Source of the DNA: Qipengyuania sp.
GTDB taxonomy: Bacteria > Pseudomonadota > Alphaproteobacteria > Sphingomonadales > Sphingomonadaceae
Assembly (NCBI GenBank): GCA_019745075.1
Contig: JAIETR010000009.1
Coordinates: 1-64,000, forward strand
Direction of reading: 5' to 3'
DNA length: 64,000 nt
The notes under the pieces were generated by a model, which was not told the origin of the DNA, ran no database searches, and saw only the letters and a program-made list of their open reading frames with translations. Shown here piece after piece: positions 5,137 through 64,000 of this stretch. Both the position numbers and the translations under genes were made by a program. Each line of letters begins with the position of its first letter. Positions within the stretch are counted from its first letter, which is position 1.

Positions 5137-5856
5137 ATGCCCGCCACACGTCTCGCCGACCGCGCGCTCGTCCGCCTGAGCCCCCACGACCAGAGCGAGG
5201 ACGTCGTCGGCTTCCTCCAGAGCCTCGTCACCAATGACGTCTCAGGGGCCCTGCCCGTCTATGCCGGCCTGCTGACGCCCCAGGGCAAGACGCTGTTCGA
5301 TTTCATCGTCTGGCCAGGCGAAGGCGGTTCGCTGCTGCTCGACTGCGAAGCTTCCGCCGCGGACGATCTCGTCCGGCGTCTGTCGCTCTACCGGCTACGC
5401 CGCAAGATCGCGATCGCAATCGCGCCTGAGCTGGCGGTGCATTGGGAAGCGCATCCTGGCGATGGCGGCGCGGCGGACCCGCGTCTCTCCGCTCTAGGCC
5501 AGCGTTGGTTAGCGCCGGCCGAAGAGAGCGAGGATTCCGCCGACTCGGCCTGGCTTGCACATCGGCTGAAGCTTGGCGTTCCCGAAGGCCGCGCAGAGCT
5601 CGGCGACGTGCTTTGGCTAGAAACCAATGCCGCCGAACTGAACGGGGTGTCGTTTTCGAAGGGCTGCTATGTCGGGCAGGAGAACACCGCGCGGATGAAC
5701 TGGCGGCAGAAGGTCAACCGGCGGCTGGCGGTGGTGCCGCTCGAGCGTTCGGACGAAAAGCGCCGCAAGGCCGCCTATTCCGAACTGACGCTGGCGGTGG
5801 ATCATCTGCGGGTGGAGGACATCGATCCGACGCAGCTGCCTGGGTGGCTAACCTAA
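5137..5856 (+). CDS. ygfZ: Folate-binding YgfZ/GcvT-like protein
   Basis: 239 residues. YgfZ proteins use tetrahydrofolate and help in the maintenance of certain iron-sulfur enzymes such as MiaB (family knowledge). The diagnostic motif K-G-C-Y-V-G-Q-E is at about residues 175-182 and is followed by TARM; the cysteine is the conserved reactive one. The start ATG at 5137 gives the N-terminus MPATRLADRALV, normal for the family; the frame is open further upstream but this overlaps pyrC. Divergent from pyrC. Confidence 0.88.
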   Translation: MPATRLADRALVRLSPHDQSEDVVGFLQSLVTNDVSGALPVYAGLLTPQGKTLFDFIVWPGEGGSLLLDCEASAADDLVRRLSLYRLRRKIAIAIAPELAVHWEAHPGDGGAADPRLSALGQRWLAPAEESEDSADSAWLAHRLKLGVPEGRAELGDVLWLETNAAELNGVSFSKGCYVGQENTARMNWRQKVNRRLAVVPLERSDEKRRKAAYSELTLAVDHLRVEDIDPTQLPGWLT

Positions 5857-5868
5857 TAGCGCCCTGAC

Positions 5869-5956
5869 CCGTTCGTATCGAGCGAAGGCCGCCAGGCCGT
5901 AGTCGAGATACCGCGGACCGGTGCGAGGGTGTCTCGACTTCGCTCGACACGAACGG
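5869..5956. repeat. Imperfect inverted repeat between convergent genes
   Basis: Left arm CCGTTCGTATCGAGCGAAG with a displaced AGTCGAGATAC; right arm GTGTCTCGACTTCGCTCGACACGAACGG read 5' to 3' is its complement with a few changes. The pair can fold into one long hairpin in the 115-base gap between ygfZ (rightward) and the TetR gene (leftward), so it may serve as a two-way terminator. Similar short CGTTCG-TCGAGC repeats are common between genes in sphingomonads (recalled, not searched). Confidence 0.6.
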
Positions 5957-5971
5957 ACAAGTGAAAGTCGA

Positions 5972-6562
5972 TCAGTCCACCCGCTCGAGCGCGCGCTCGA
6001 GCATCGCCTGCGCCCGGTCGCGCGCGGCGGTATCGCTGAGGCCCAGCGAGCGCGCCAGCGCTTTCCCGATCAGTGCGTCACCCATCGCCATCAGCACCAG
6101 CGCGAGCGTGTCCTCGTGCACCGCCATATTGCCGCGGTGGCTGGCCTCGTCGGCCGCGATCTCGTCAACCAGCGCATGGATCGTCTCGACGATCGGGGTG
6201 AGCGCGTCCTCGTTGCCGGTCAGGATCATCCAGCTTGCCAGCGCCCCCGCGCCTTCCTTGTCGAACGCGTCGAAGGCGAGATCGACCACTTCACGAGGGC
6301 TGCCGAGTCCTGCCCGGCTCGCGCGCACCGCCTCGGCGATGGTGGCGCAGACCGTCCTGGCGAGATGCGCGGCCAGATCGCGCTGCAATCCCGCCGCCGA
6401 CCCGAAGTGGTGCAGCAGATTGGCGTGGGTCCGGTCGATTCGTCCCGCCACCGCCTTCAGCGTAACGGCCTGCGGACCGGCTTCGATCAACAGCAAGCGC
6501 GCCGCTTCGAGCGCGGCGAGGCGCGATTCTTCGGGTGGCAGCCGCCTTCTGGGTTCGGTCAT
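5972..6562 (-). CDS. TetR family transcriptional regulator
   Basis: 196 residues. The N-terminal helix-turn-helix of about 45 residues is typical: AARLLLIEAGPQAVTLKAVA then HANLLHHFGSAAGLQ. The C-terminal half is the variable ligand-binding and dimerisation part and does not reveal the ligand. It is divergent from the metal-dependent hydrolase gene at 6660, and the 97-base gap between them carries two tandem TGACA-N4-TGTCA palindromes, so it probably represses both itself and the hydrolase (inference). Start ATG at 6562. Confidence 0.88.
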   Translation of the reverse strand: MTEPRRRLPPEESRLAALEAARLLLIEAGPQAVTLKAVAGRIDRTHANLLHHFGSAAGLQRDLAAHLARTVCATIAEAVRASRAGLGSPREVVDLAFDAFDKEGAGALASWMILTGNEDALTPIVETIHALVDEIAADEASHRGNMAVHEDTLALVLMAMGDALIGKALARSLGLSDTAARDRAQAMLERALERVD

Positions 6563-60524: not shown

Positions 60525-60597
60525 GGGCCTGTAGCTCAGCGGTTAGAGCTGGCCGCTCATAACGGCTAGGTCGCGGGTTCGAATCCTGCCGGGCCCA
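60525..60597 (+). tRNA. tRNA with CAU anticodon, probably tRNA-Ile2
   Basis: Cloverleaf of 73 nt: acceptor GGGCCTG/CGGGCCC, D arm GCTC/GAGC, anticodon stem GGCCG/CGGCT with loop CTCATAA (anticodon CAU), T arm GCGGG/CCTGC with loop TTCGAAT, discriminator A. The CUCAUAA loop and acceptor are like the tRNA-Ile2 group, in which TilS changes C34 to lysidine, rather than elongator tRNA-Met; the choice is not certain. The 3' end is followed by CCG, so CCA is not encoded, unlike tRNA-Val in this window. Confidence 0.9.
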
Positions 60598-60672
60598 CCG
60601 GTCGCGCTGACATTGCTCGCTAAGGATTGCCGATCGGCACTTTAACGGCTGCTCGGCAACTTAAGGGGCGCA

Positions 60673-61920
60673 TCAGGAGCGATTGCCGGACCGAACGCCT
60701 CCCGTCCGCTCGGCATCGCTCCCCACCTCGTCATCGCCCGCCCGATCCTCGTTGATCAACTGATTGCCATCGACGGAGTAGGTCGAGAAATGCTCACGCT
60801 CGAAATCAGCGTAGAATCCGAGCAGCCGCTTCCAGCGAATCACGGCCAGCGCGGCGTTCAGAGCATTCAGCTCACCGACCTGAATGTTAGTGGAGTAGGG
60901 ATCATCGCCGCGCTGGCCGGCCATCGGGATCCGATCCCGGTCCCAGACGTGGTCGCGCATAGCCGCCGTGCTCGTGGTGACCCGGACCGTTCCCGTCAGC
61001 CCGGCGTCGGTCTCATGAAGACCCATGCCGACGTCGATGAAGCTGGTCCCGTCAGCTTCCAACCGTTCAACGATCATGGCTTTGCCCGCCGCGTCGTCCA
61101 TGCAGAGGAACACGAAGTCGAAACCTTCGAGCAGCCGGAGCGTCGGCGACCCTATCCGGACCCGATGCGGCACGATGCCGCGATGGATCCGGGAATAGAT
61201 GCGGTCAAAGTGGTTGACCTTCGGCCGGCGTTCGGCCAATTCCTCCCGAGACACGGCGCCCGGTGCGCGAAAGGCGTTGTGCTGGAGGAGCAGGTCGTCG
61301 TCGAAAAGATGAATGCGCGCCACCGGTGTCTTGCTGACGAGATCCAGGACGTAGCTGCCGGTCCCTCCGAGCCCCACTATAGCCACATGCTGTCCGGCCA
61401 AGCCCTCCCAGAGCTTCCCGATTCCGCTTCGGGAGGTGGCAGTGTCCACATAGTTGAAGGGCGAATCCTCAGCCGAGGCCGCCACGACGCGGCGGGTGCG
61501 CGCGGTAGCGGCCGGGTCGATCGCCATGGCATGGTTCGAGATCTGCGCCACGAAGGTGACCATCTTCTCGTGAAAGTCCGAGAACTCGCGCCCGAGAGGA
61601 CGGCTGCACAGCCAATGGTCGACCTTCAGCCCGCCGCCCAGGTCTCGCCCGTGATGGGCGTGGAGCATCCCCAGCAGCGGCCGGCCTTCTCGGTCGCACG
61701 GAAGCGATCCCGCGAACCAGGCCTGATGATCGCTCGGCGGCACCGTCCGGTCGCCAGCCAGGTCGAGCCTCGACACCAGCGTCCCGCGTCGCACACGGCG
61801 GTGGTGATCGACGTAAGGCACGTCCCGCACCAGGAGATGGCCGGCAACGACGTCAACGTCGTAGCCGTCCTCCACCAGGCGCCGCAGATCAGGGCTAAGA
61901 CTTATCGGTCGACGTGACAC
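60673..61920 (-). CDS. ThiF/E1-type adenylyltransferase with DUF6791-like N-terminal domain
   Basis: 415 residues. Residues 1-150 (V-E-D-G-Y-D-V-D-V-V, V-R-D-V-P-Y-V, LVSRLDLAGD, then F-H-E-K-M-V-T-F-V) fit the DUF6791 domain found before ThiF in multi-ubiquitin operons. Residues 178-300 are the ThiF adenylation fold: GLGGTGS at 183-189, F-D-D-D at 206-209, N215, R218, K234. It should activate the C-terminus of a ubiquitin-like protein with ATP. Cysteines are C75, C105, C273; none is placed as a typical E1 thioester cysteine. Start GTG at 61920 lies inside the multi-ubiquitin gene, 26 bases overlap. Last gene of the operon, 75 bases from the tRNA. Confidence 0.87.
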   Translation of the reverse strand: MSRRPISLSPDLRRLVEDGYDVDVVAGHLLVRDVPYVDHHRRVRRGTLVSRLDLAGDRTVPPSDHQAWFAGSLPCDREGRPLLGMLHAHHGRDLGGGLKVDHWLCSRPLGREFSDFHEKMVTFVAQISNHAMAIDPAATARTRRVVAASAEDSPFNYVDTATSRSGIGKLWEGLAGQHVAIVGLGGTGSYVLDLVSKTPVARIHLFDDDLLLQHNAFRAPGAVSREELAERRPKVNHFDRIYSRIHRGIVPHRVRIGSPTLRLLEGFDFVFLCMDDAAGKAMIVERLEADGTSFIDVGMGLHETDAGLTGTVRVTTSTAAMRDHVWDRDRIPMAGQRGDDPYSTNIQVGELNALNAALAVIRWKRLLGFYADFEREHFSTYSVDGNQLINEDRAGDDEVGSDAERTGGVRSGNRS

Positions 61921-62566
61921 TGAACACCTCGCCCCGGCGCACCTTGATCGCCTCGCGCGAGACCAGCGACCCTTCTGGGCGGTCTGGCGGCCCACGGCGA
62001 TAGGTGACGGTCAGCGAGCGCATGCCCGGGTTCGCCGGATCCGAACCGGGAAAGGCCAGCCCGACAAGATCCTCGAAGCTCACCTCCGGCCGGTCGAGGG
62101 TCACGGAGCGCCCGTTGATGACGACCGGCACCCGCTCGTTCGGCGCCGCCGCCTGGCGGACCTCGATCTGCGGCGGCCACGGGGTGGTGAGATCGACGAC
62201 GCTGCCGCTTCGGATCGGGGCCTCGTCGCCTTCGATGAACAGCGACTGGTCGGAGCCGATGTCGGCGATCCCGCGGATCTCGTGCTCGGTGATGGCTGGC
62301 GCCCCCCATTCCCAAAGCAGACCATTGACGCGCAGGTGATGGATAGCGCCATCGCGGAATGTCCGGAACTCGGGCGCCGCATCCGCATCGAGACCCACCG
62401 GCTGCTCTGGCGCGAAGTGAGAAGCACGACCGCCGTGGATCCGAACGACCACCCCATCGCCAACAATGCCGGCGAGTTCGAGCACGTCGGCTGCCGTGAT
62501 CGGACGGGAATCTATTTCGATCAAACGACCATCGGCAACGATGACGGTCTTATCATCCTTATCCAT
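61895..62566 (-). CDS. Multi-ubiquitin domain protein (three beta-grasp repeats)
   Basis: 223 residues. Three repeats of the beta-grasp pattern: about 6-70 (V-I-V-A-D-G-R-L-I-E-I), 74-135 (RVNGLLWEWGAPAITEHEI) and 145-220 (VVINGRSVTLDRPEVSFEDL then S-L-T-V-T-Y-R-R-G). The third is ThiS-like. The C-terminus is S-V-T-S-T-D-K-S, without Gly-Gly. This fits the multi-ubiquitin family, thought to be a chain of ubiquitin-like units used by the neighbouring E1. AAGGAG lies nine bases before the ATG at 62566; an ATG two codons earlier (62572) is too close. Overlaps the E1 gene. Confidence 0.85.
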   Translation of the reverse strand: MDKDDKTVIVADGRLIEIDSRPITAADVLELAGIVGDGVVVRIHGGRASHFAPEQPVGLDADAAPEFRTFRDGAIHHLRVNGLLWEWGAPAITEHEIRGIADIGSDQSLFIEGDEAPIRSGSVVDLTTPWPPQIEVRQAAAPNERVPVVINGRSVTLDRPEVSFEDLVGLAFPGSDPANPGMRSLTVTYRRGPPDRPEGSLVSREAIKVRRGEVFSVTSTDKS

Positions 62567-62594
62567 GTTCATAGGCTCCTTGCTGTTAGTTTCG

Positions 62595-63491
62595 TCATTC
62601 GATTGCCGTCCGCACCCAATGCCGTGCGGACTCGTAGAGGCGTGCGGTCGAGCGCGAGCCGGATGCCCGCTGCAGATGGATCAGACCCTCAGCGACGCGG
62701 TGCTCGACCCGATCGATGACACCCGCATCAATGGCGGCCTCGGCCAGCACCTCCGCGAGGTGAAGCGGGAGCTCGTGCGGCTCGGGCCAATGCAGTTCGA
62801 CCCGACTGAGAAGCCCGAGCAGTGCAGGCGAGATCATGCTGGGATCCCGGCATTGCACGATCCAGCTAATCTGCCGGAGGTCGACCGTGCTCCTGGTCGC
62901 GAAATCCACCCACCGAGCCCCGGTGCGCGGATCGATCATCTTCGCGAGTTCGCCCTGCGTCTCGAGGTCTGCCCCGTCCAGGCCCGCAATGCTGATCACC
63001 GGGTTGGCACATCCGCTTACCGCCATTGCGAGCACCGGGAGCGAGGGAAGCACCAGGTCGGGACCGCGCGGGCGCTGCCTCAGCTGCTCGGTCCCTGCCG
63101 GGTCAGACAGATCAAGCCCGACGTGCGGCAGCCCGGCGAGCTGGGCGAGCCGCCTAGCGAAGTGGGTGCGTCCCACGCCAGCCGCTCCGCATACCAGCAG
63201 CGGCGGCAGCGTGAACCACGGCGAGGCAGCATCACCCGATCTTCGGATCGCGCGATGGACATAGGGCAGCAGCTGCGACTGCCAGCAGAATCCGAGCCCC
63301 AGATGTAGGCGAGACTGAGCCTCAGGGTCGCCGCCGCGGAGGGACAGAGGTAGAGCAAGGCCAAGCGGAACCGGAATGGATGAGAGGCTCTCCGCGACGA
63401 TCATCGCGGCCGCCGTCGTCGCATCCCCTCCCCCCGTGGAGGCGACGAGAGCGCCACATTGCGAAAGCCCTTCCACCGCCGAGCCGCTCAT
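62595..63491 (-). CDS. AAA+ protein with degenerate Walker motifs
   Basis: 298 residues. The fold is that of a Lon-like AAA+ module: VCGAAGVGRTHFARRLA is the P-loop (G102 to T109) but Lys is replaced by R108; the Walker B strand is NPVISIAGLDG, lacking the D-E pair; sensor 1 is W-I-V-Q-C-R-D in place of a T-A-N-D type. The arginine in GLLSR (R230) is kept. It is probably unable to hydrolyse ATP and may be the inactive partner of an active AAA+ outside the window (inference). It begins in an ATGA overlap with the upstream gene and ends 29 bases before the multi-ubiquitin start. Confidence 0.75.
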   Translation of the reverse strand: MSGSAVEGLSQCGALVASTGGGDATTAAAMIVAESLSSIPVPLGLALPLSLRGGDPEAQSRLHLGLGFCWQSQLLPYVHRAIRRSGDAASPWFTLPPLLVCGAAGVGRTHFARRLAQLAGLPHVGLDLSDPAGTEQLRQRPRGPDLVLPSLPVLAMAVSGCANPVISIAGLDGADLETQGELAKMIDPRTGARWVDFATRSTVDLRQISWIVQCRDPSMISPALLGLLSRVELHWPEPHELPLHLAEVLAEAAIDAGVIDRVEHRVAEGLIHLQRASGSRSTARLYESARHWVRTAIE

Positions 63492-64000
63492 TCGCCCCTC
63501 CAGAAGCGGAGGGGACGCCTGCCGCGCGAGGCGAGACCGCGGGTCCTTATTTCGGCTTCCGTTGCCCGCATGCCGGCGATGACCAGGCGCTCAAGGGCGA
63601 CGGGTCCCTCTGCTTGGAAAAGATCACGAAATTCGTGAAAGCGGTGCTTTTGCCAACGCAGCCAGTCGAGGACCCGTTCGCGCTCCCACTTCTCGCTGAA
63701 GGACATCAGGAAGAACGGCTTCTTCTCGTCACCGCTCTGGAGGGAGAGCCCCGGCCGCTTGCTCTTCGGATCCAGGATGTAGAGGTCGATCTGGCGGCGC
63801 AAACGAATCCGCTCCTCCTCTTCGAGGCGAGCCTCTTCCGCCTCGATTGCCGCTTTCTCGGCCTCCCGTTCCGCAGCGGCGATCACCACCGAGCGGACCG
63901 CCTCCTCACCGAACAGGTAGGCCAGCCTGCCCCAGAGCGGCCAGTCGCCGGGTCGCAAACACATCCAGTCGAAGATCGAGCGAGCCCGCCCGCCGCCGAC
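63488..64000 (-). CDS. Coiled-coil protein of the ubiquitin-like island, 5' end outside the window
   Basis: The frame is open to the right edge of the window (ARSIFDWMCLRPGDWPLWGR at the edge, part of it before the ATG at 63964), so the start is likely outside. About 170 residues are visible. A charged coiled coil, AEREAEKAAIEAEEARLEEE (about 30 residues), leads to L-Y-I-L-D-P-K-S and a more globular end with MSFSEKWERERVLDWLRWQK. No domain recognised. The stop overlaps the AAA+ start by four bases, so it is in the same operon. Confidence 0.7.
   Translation of the reverse strand, partial: VGGGRARSIFDWMCLRPGDWPLWGRLAYLFGEEAVRSVVIAAAEREAEKAAIEAEEARLEEEERIRLRRQIDLYILDPKSKRPGLSLQSGDEKKPFFLMSFSEKWERERVLDWLRWQKHRFHEFRDLFQAEGPVALERLVIAGMRATEAEIRTRGLASRGRRPLRFWRGE

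Follow-up and report, generated by a model that had tools for sequence, protein, structure and literature searches.

A tRNA-linked multi-ubiquitin and E1 gene module with a degenerate AAA+ partner in Qipengyuania sp.

Layout of the locus

The window, meaning the whole stretch of DNA analysed here, comprises positions 1-64,000 of contig JAIETR010000009.1 (C10) from the genome of a Qipengyuania sp. (G000). As the initial annotation had described, a leftward, nearly gapless run of genes for a "coiled-coil" (CC) protein, an AAA+ protein, a multi-ubiquitin protein (Ub) and an E1-like enzyme lies beside a CAU tRNA gene at 60673-64000. The expectation that the operon extends past the right edge was also correct, as the contig adds an exonuclease gene and a further gene. 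The features are as follows (contig coordinates).

60525..60599, + strand: tRNA-Met(CAT), bordering the insertion on the left (ARAGORN)
60673..61920, - strand: E1-like adenylating enzyme, N-terminal DUF6791 plus ThiF (Pfam, NCBIfam, structure comparison)
61895..62572, - strand: multi-ubiquitin protein, three beta-grasp domains, C-terminus TDKS (Pfam, hhalign, 9cd2 match)
62595..63491, - strand: degenerate AAA+ protein, Walker A Lys replaced by Arg and Walker B Asp-Glu lost (Pfam, profile, alignment)
63488..64186, - strand: "coiled-coil" protein, running past the window edge at 64000 (ORF list)
64183-65070, - strand: DnaQ-like exonuclease, beyond the window and upstream of CC (profile scans)
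65137-66021, - strand: uncharacterised gene upstream of the exonuclease, beyond the window (ORF list)

The E1 start was placed at the GTG at 61920 by comparison with homologues, in a reading frame that is open up to 61995. Spacings are -4 bases for exonuclease/CC, -4 for CC/AAA+, 22 between AAA+ and Ub, and -26 for Ub/E1. The E1 stop lies 73 bases from the end of the tRNA-Met gene; the adjacency reported earlier stands, with its figure of 75 bases corrected. Extension of the contig to the right had been proposed in order to look for an active AAA+, E2, JAB or integrase gene. The run does go on, but no active AAA+, E2 or JAB was recognised with Pfam and NCBIfam models in the operon genes scanned, nor any of these or an integrase beside the module among the C10 genes scanned and in the ORF list, read by eye to the contig end.

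The multi-ubiquitin protein and the E1 enzyme

The Multi_ubiq match (PF14452, 1.8e-17) falls within the last third of Ub, and the solved structure 9cd2_A matches residues 12-225, through the final residue (6e-21), so that the earlier assignment of a beta-grasp fold is upheld over nearly the whole length of the protein. Domains 1 and 2 are mutual repeats (hhalign 94%, E 1.3e-7), and domain 3 weakly resembles both (14-16%, E 1.6e-3 to 1.9e-3, hhalign). The C-terminus has no Gly-Gly and ends in a conserved Ser.

The E1 matches DUF6791 (1.5e-50) and ThiF (2.2e-10) in Pfam, and NF004805 in NCBIfam (480 bits, cut-off 352). Across 12 E1s the GxGGxG, DxD, HxxFR, K and D positions are invariant, which we take to be the ATP site as in ThiF and MoeB, and no Cys is invariant; the alignment shows that the enzyme has kept its predicted adenylation-site residues. 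Structure prediction yields the E1 fold that had been proposed, with BubCD as the top PDB match (4.8e-12, TM about 0.4) and Cap2, ThiF and MccB structures also among the matches. DUF6791 was found in nine genomes. The E1 is too short to contain it at 8 of the 13 module loci described below, and the E1 of a second module in the host, on contig C4, has no DUF6791 by Pfam. In the DUF6791 model, helices and strands follow one another in a way that looks UBC-like by eye, but an identity as E2 is not claimed, as the PDB profile search returned no E2 match.

The AAA+ and CC partners

The AAA+ protein has a weak Pfam AAA match (0.0088, below its cut-off) and was assigned to the Lon type by a ten-row profile (1.2e-10). 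It is called degenerate because its P-loop, GAAGVGRTH, has Arg for Lys and because the Walker-B Asp-Glu is absent, which bears out the description first given to it. The same holds for every module AAA protein: the Walker-A Lys is missing in 13 of 13 (Arg in 12, the P-loop lost in one), as is the Walker-B Asp-Glu, and GK[ST] is retained by all seven outside relatives examined. As far as can be read from these motifs, the comparison shows that residues needed for ATP hydrolysis are gone from the AAA+ partner.

Clear AAA+ relatives among the family genomes occur on C4 and in G027, G076, G043 and G123; the last four have intact Walker motifs, and none of these four is among the nine DUF6791 genomes. 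An intact AAA relative also lies about 5 kb from the Ub-E1 genes of L050. Of 199 family genomes, 171 gave AAA+ matches; most of these have open frames of about 800 codons and were set aside as Lon protease. The viral contigs held no AAA relatives. The "coiled-coil" label suits one long helix of the CC protein but not the rest of the model (made for the L058 homologue), which is a duplicated beta3-alpha2 unit. The CC fold search gave no confident match (best E 0.063), and weak hits of the protein's profile to p97 (0.075 at best) were taken as chance. CC matches with E above 1e-7 were discarded as coiled-coil noise (16 of 20, 2 of 3 and 1 of 2 genomes), and no CC relatives were found in viral contigs, plasmids or phages.

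The module as a recurring unit

CC was found at 13 loci (the window, C4, L057-L063, L122, L123, L170 and L171), and the neighbourhood comparison proposed for homologous loci gave the order CC-AAA-Ub-E1 at every one of them. This arrangement was present at none of the 14 other Ub-E1 loci scanned (L017, L050, L052, L085-L089, L091, L092 and L124-L127). Furthermore, in a tree that took in 10 of the 13 module E1s, all ten fall on one side of one branch (89/80; 88% of 200 bootstrap trees). Gene order and E1 relationships show the four genes, as far as such comparisons reach, travelling together as one unit, which the exonuclease and uncharacterised genes accompany at three loci. The suggestion that the module is accessory, with perhaps a novel set of partners, is supported; it also looks mobile, and the pairing of CC with a degenerate AAA+ protein does look new.

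Insertion site and transposon genes

In eight same-genus genomes fetched for comparison, the next tRNA after tRNA-Met is tRNA-Pro(TGG), 21-178 bases on, with no other tRNA between (8/8). The module is thus not at this site in these close relatives, where the pair is uninterrupted. In the host the pair is split, with the module at tRNA-Met and TniA-TniB-TniQ-type genes at tRNA-Pro on another contig, and because of this split the module would lie inside the transposon. Beside tRNA-Pro, TniB is matched at 6.3e-21 and rve at 1.9e-7, just under its cut-off; the TnsA and TniQ labels are tentative assignments from gene order, and have no Pfam match. On one contig of G702, a segment of about 17 kb holds the module together with TnsA-like, TniA, TniB and TniQ-like genes. 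The mobility genes found are a transposase set, on another contig in the host and contiguous with the module in G702 alone; no integrase was recognised beside the module among the C10 genes scanned. From these arrangements, the module is most likely cargo of a Tn7-like transposon.

A candidate transposon end motif was seen by eye, and 38 of 300 shuffles were equally good. The tRNA end was rejected as a direct attachment repeat, as its 26 bases occur once in the genome. Among the four non-C4-type modules besides that of the window, tns-like genes lie near L170 only, with none in the L122, L123 and L171/L174 pieces. The C4-type copies sit in a different kind of element, with a serine recombinase and a MobQ-like relaxase. 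Among 60 same-genus genomes, 10 others have TniQ matches (best 2.5e-55).

Neighbouring genes and possible roles

Bacterial ubiquitin-like pathways have only recently been described, and we know of no account of target choice in this branch of them. The reading we favour, with confidence evenly balanced, is that the locus is a variant polyUbl/Bub cassette carried by a Tn7-like transposon inserted between tRNA-Met and tRNA-Pro. The E1 would adenylate the C-terminus of the Ubl protein and hand it on without an E1 cysteine, and CC with the dead AAA+ would form a scaffold that replaces the usual E2-like partner, either as target adaptor or by being the target. The exonuclease could be an effector or a sensor acting on nucleic acid, and the module would probably serve to compete against phages or other mobile DNA. 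A more ambitious version, which we regard as speculative and doubtful, is a pathway built on the dead AAA+, in which CC and the pseudo-AAA+ stand in for both E2 and E3 and bring one dedicated target before the cysteine-free E1, with the DnaQ-type exonuclease as effector and with spread by Tn7-like transposons and mobilisable elements.

Some defence-type genes in the wider surroundings are consistent with the favoured reading. The L122 module lies between a SIR2 gene and a candidate PDC-S65 gene, and C24, a contig separate from C10, carries a CBASS cyclase (551 bits) and a SAVED effector, with no Cap2 seen in the ORF lists around the pair. In the few C4 proteins scanned, weak E1-E2 matches were the only ones to defence genes. 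According to the part of PMC13373217 (2026) drawn on here, protection against phage has yet to be demonstrated for Bub operons.

Cap2 primes its CD-NTase. By analogy, a narrower form of the main reading would make the degenerate AAA+ (or CC) the sole substrate, primed by the E1 through Ubl joining, with the pair serving as sensor and not adaptor. The position of CC and AAA directly upstream of Ub-E1 at 13 of 13 loci and the Cap2 structures among the E1 fold matches are consistent with this, but a Cap2-type E2 part was not recognised and PADLOC E1-E2 matches reach at most 31.3 bits; we consider it tentative and on balance unlikely. Less credible is a role in the upkeep or regulation of mobile elements (plasmid or transposon stability), with no part in defence. 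According to the portion of PMC4963859 consulted, 70% of PF14452 proteins adjoin COG2856/DUF955 toxin-antitoxin loci. Here, the L123 module has an ImmA-type gene (models PD-Lambda-2_B, RmrA and capP) about 1.5 kb away, and at L122 the uncharacterised gene gives a weak match of antitoxin type (0.029, below its cut-off), but reading the ORF list by eye revealed no HTH/ImmA pair next to the module of the window. Finally, that Ubl and E1 might transfer sulfur or adenylate as ThiS-ThiF or MccB do, as a carrier pair in a metabolic or small-molecule pathway without conjugation, would suit E1s with no invariant Cys, a Ubl with no Gly-Gly and the ThiF and MccB fold matches, but is improbable given three linked Ubl domains, BubCD and a multi-ubiquitin protein as the best E1 and Ub matches, and scanned operon genes of which none was recognised as metabolic.

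Comparison with known systems

Judged by sequence, the Ubl-E1 core is of the known polyUbl ("6e"/Bub) type. With polyUbl class 6e, as set out in the parts of PMC1779556 used here, it shares two to three tandem Ubl domains, an E1 in the same run and mobility. Some class 6e E1s have 'domain X' where others have JAB (Iyer, Burroughs and Aravind 2006, PMC1779556, same parts), and the JAB/domain X fusion has its counterpart in the N-terminal DUF6791 of the window E1, which may be domain X itself. The class as described there also has an inactive E2/RWD gene and a metal-binding protein Y, neither recognised here, whereas the module adds CC, the dead AAA+ and, at three loci, the exonuclease and uncharacterised genes. 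Pfam and NCBIfam models gave no match in the operon genes to E2/RWD (BubB), which could escape if diverged, or to protein Y/DUF6527.

The Bub pathway is represented by the structures 9ea4 and 9eav, and 9cd2 presumably also belongs to it. The module shares with this pathway BubCD as top E1 fold match and a Ubl that matches the solved multi-ubiquitin protein 9cd2, and differs in an E1 N-terminus that is DUF6791 or nothing, the lack of a recognised BubB gene, and the CC and AAA+ partners. Plasmid cassettes of multiubiquitin-ThiF-DUF6527, such as that of Croceicoccus p1, have E1s of the same family (46-55% identity, best 40 of 118 records), and the Croceicoccus p1 Ub likewise ends in TDKS. DUF6527 is named in 15 of the 40 matches listed, but was not recognised in the window module, and the Croceicoccus p1 cassette adjoins HTH/ImmA genes where the window module instead has CC, AAA and exonuclease genes. 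The separate E2 and JAB genes of Bil (BilABCD) had no match in the operon genes, and type II CBASS Cap2, an E2-E1 fusion beside the CD-NTase, is approached only by the weak PADLOC matches given above, with the CBASS pair on another contig. A PRTRC system was rejected, as TIGR03736 matched the C4 E1 at 0.015 and no other PRTRC model matched.

A conserved lineage in which dead AAA+, CC, Ubl and E1 occur together, and in which neither E2 nor protease was recognised, amounts to a minimal four-gene set suited to direct study of how targets are chosen and how transfer might proceed without a cysteine. Tn7-like transposons with defence cargo (PMC8649781, in part) share with the host locus TniA/TniB/TniQ-type genes, tRNA-side insertion and CBASS cargo. 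The words 'ubiquitin' and 'ThiF' do not occur in the main text of that paper, and the cargo list of Tn7-like transposons would gain ubiquitin-like cassettes.

The gene run beside tRNA-Met

The contig that carries the module, C10, is 68,796 bases long, the window covering its bases 1-64000, and belongs to a genome of 3.02 Mb in 82 contigs. The initial annotation had described a leftward, nearly gapless run next to a CAU tRNA gene, with the remainder of the operon beyond the right edge; both points hold, as an exonuclease gene and a gene without assigned family precede that of the "coiled-coil" (CC) protein.

Contig 65137-66021, leftward: gene without assigned family, first of the run, beyond the window edge
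Contig 64183-65070, leftward: DnaQ-like 3'-5' exonuclease (NF006615 at 271 bits, cut-off 207)
63488-64186, leftward: CC protein, crossing the window edge
62595-63491, leftward: AAA+ protein
61895-62572, leftward: multi-ubiquitin protein, Ub (Multi_ubiq, 1.8e-17)
60673-61920, leftward: E1-like enzyme, E1 (DUF6791, 1.5e-50; ThiF, 2.2e-10)

From right to left, the spacings along the run are 66, -4, -4, 22 and -26 bases, and the end of E1 lies 73 bases, rather than the 75 first given, from tRNA-Met(CAT). To the right of the run, on the opposite strand, are an ArsR-like frame (by reading), a DNA methylase (PDLC03338, 321 bits) and an open frame that reaches the contig end, for which PADLOC gave no match.

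Recurrence of the module

A second copy of the module is found on another contig of the same genome, C4 (identity 52% for E1, 34% for AAA and 34% for CC). Scanning an 84,980-species collection with two CC peptide patterns, a procedure by which relatives can be missed, matched 85 stretches and gave 7 confirmed loci, all named Sphingomonas or Sphingomonadales. With the window, C4 and loci in four genomes of the same family (G759, G751, G702 and G833) this makes 13 loci, and the order CC-AAA-Ub-E1 is kept in every one of them. The independent cases number fewer than 13, because L062 is nearly one element with C4 (98.3-100% identity over ten C4 proteins compared) and L059 and L060 are close to one another. 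The set was absent from all 14 other Ub-E1 loci scanned; in one of these, L050, an intact AAA relative is encoded at a distance of about 5 kb. True CC matches were found in 4/397 genomes of a family sample (16 weak ones discarded), in the window genome alone of 398 in a phylum sample (one weak discarded) and, with a two-row CC profile, again in the window genome alone of 385 in a class sample (two weak discarded); the viral contigs, plasmids and phages searched held no CC relatives.

The flanks of the module are more variable. In the window, L122 and L123, CC is preceded by the exonuclease and its companion gene, neither of which stands before it in pieces L170 and L171; in C4, an exonuclease relative is located elsewhere within the element. 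Two long modules have a further, seventh gene (about 212 codons, no Pfam or PADLOC match) directly 3' of E1, at L122:11518-12156 and L123:4298-4939; it is missing from the window, where the E1 end adjoins the tRNA. E1 is too short for DUF6791 at 8 loci (C4, L057-L063), of which C4 was scanned with Pfam. In a tree of 26 E1s, drawn without those of L062, L170 and L171, a branch with support 89/80, recovered in 88% of 200 bootstrap trees, has all ten module E1s included on the same side, which is consistent with the partnership having arisen once and DUF6791 having been lost afterwards.

Degenerate AAA+ and the CC protein

The AAA+ protein, whose profile matches Lon AAA+ structures (1.2e-10), is dead as judged by its residues, in agreement with its earlier description as degenerate. 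The Walker-A lysine is absent from all 13 module AAA proteins (10 GRTH, 1 GRNH, 1 GRGH, and the P-loop gone in G702), as is the Walker-B Asp-Glu, whereas seven outside relatives, from four genomes and 3 of 10 plasmid records, have GK[ST] in 7/7 and Asp-Glu in 6/7. Going by a predicted model of the L058 homologue (mean pLDDT 81.5, pTM 0.57, 8 sequences), the name "coiled-coil" describes only part of the CC protein: the long helix implied by that name is present, but it lies between two copies of a beta3-alpha2 unit. The model had no PDB match (best E 0.063).

The Ub-E1 core

A triple beta-grasp protein paired with a DUF6791-ThiF E1 had been proposed, and the three Ub domains and two E1 domains bear this out. 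Domains 1 and 2 of Ub are clear repeats of one another (94%, E 1.3e-7) and domain 3 is weakly similar to them (14-16%, E 1.6e-3 to 1.9e-3); the Multi_ubiq match covers the last third of the protein. The solved multi-ubiquitin protein 9cd2_A aligns from Ub residue 12 to the last residue (6e-21), with a TDKS end common to both. A C-terminal Ser, not Gly-Gly, ends 11/11 Ub proteins in one comparison and 9/9 in another, the window being in both. Across 12 E1s, the residues that we take, from ThiF and MoeB, to form the ATP site are invariant, and no Cys is. The best PDB match of the predicted E1 model (mean pLDDT 73.6, 10 sequences) is Citrobacter BubCD (4.8e-12), at low TM-scores of about 0.4, followed by ThiF, Cap2 and the UFM1 E1.

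E1 matched 118 plasmid records, and DUF6527 is named under 15 among the 40 matches listed. In the two regions with DUF6527 that were inspected, an ImmA/IrrE gene is close to the cassette, on the Croceicoccus plasmid p1 (together with an HTH gene) and on pMARC5.

A third E1 of this family in the window genome, carrying DUF6791 and located on contig C2 (L017:9213-10529, minus strand), sits beside a short Ub gene and frames read as relaxase-helicase, TraG-like and ImmA-like; it looks like an ordinary cassette on a conjugative-looking element. An AT-rich contig of a viral collection encodes a single-domain Ub and an E1 of the same type (L145:5742-7146), with a second Ub-like frame nearby (L145:7510-7743, minus strand). 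In genome G007, E1 is split over two overlapping frames (L085:8795-10049), and the copy looks broken or affected by a sequencing error.

Signs of mobility and neighboring genes

The window module looks mobile. It is not at the same place in close relatives: eight syntenic regions taken from 18 same-genus genomes all have tRNA-Pro(TGG) as the next tRNA gene after tRNA-Met(CAT), 21-178 bases away, with an upstream histidine-kinase gene common to six, and none of at least 20 same-genus genomes listed has Ub. In the window genome, tRNA-Pro sits apart on contig C24, preceded by TnsA-like, TniA (rve, slightly below cut-off), TniB (6.3e-21) and TniQ-like genes. No sequence joins C10 and C24, and a search for terminal repeats of the presumed transposon demonstrated none. 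In G702, the module lies with TnsA-like (32%), TniA (35%), TniB (41%) and TniQ-like (28%) genes within a single stretch of about 17 kb, ending in E1 on one side and TniQ on the other, a layout we infer for the window genome also; no tRNA was found in pieces of 14 kb and 17 kb from G702. This vehicle is seen for that one further module only, because pieces L122, L123 and L171/L174 gave no tns-like match. Near the G833 module, a tRNA-Phe (L174:4762-4837) lies roughly 0.4-0.6 kb from CC, on the side opposite to the window layout. Tn7-like transposons are described as inserting downstream of tRNAs and carrying CBASS (PMC8649781).

C4-type copies travel in a different vehicle, with a large serine recombinase beside tRNA-Gly and ParB-like, Dam-like and MobQ-like genes on C4. 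Two genes without assigned family, C4x and C4y, lie on either side of the C4 module (L006:2077-2916 and 5645-6274). Each has homologues at all seven loci L057-L063, that of C4x being upstream at L059 and L060, and C4y resembles a regulator by reading.

Further into C24 (L098:6533-9053), a CBASS cyclase (CD-NTase, 551 bits) and a SAVED effector stand beside the tns genes and presumably share the transposon with the module. At the C24 start (L098:241-3005), DrmB-like and DrmC-like genes (weak matches, 51 and 38 bits) perhaps form, with the methylase near the C10 end, a single DISARM-like system that the assembly gap has divided. Two C24 frames read as ACR3 and ArsH. A SIR2 gene flanks the L122 module on one side and a PDC-S65 candidate on the other, and from these neighbors and the C24 CBASS a defence role may be guessed.

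Comparison with known systems

In the open-licence literature searched (5.39 million papers), within which the two most relevant papers do not fall, no mention of DUF6791 was found, PF14452 or a multiubiquitin-domain name occurs in one paper, and a combined search around AAA+, multiubiquitin and ThiF gave no paper. Alongside the observed families, gene order, residues lost and kept and signs of mobility, we propose a pathway in which E1 would adenylate the C-terminus of the Ubl, transfer would proceed without an E1 cysteine, and CC with the dead AAA+ could serve as adaptor or target. Studies of Bub (Ye 2026, Gong 2025) reportedly describe non-cysteine intermediates in related pathways. According to a 2026 paper, phage protection by Bub operons is not shown so far, and 219/544 of them are associated with CapW or CapH+CapP and 59 with CapK+CapS, regulators that respond to DNA damage (PMC13373217). 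The Ub-E1 core is of an already known kind: in the polyUbl operons (class 6e) described by Iyer and colleagues, a 'domain X' replaces JAB on some E1s (PMC1779556), and DUF6791 is probably that domain.
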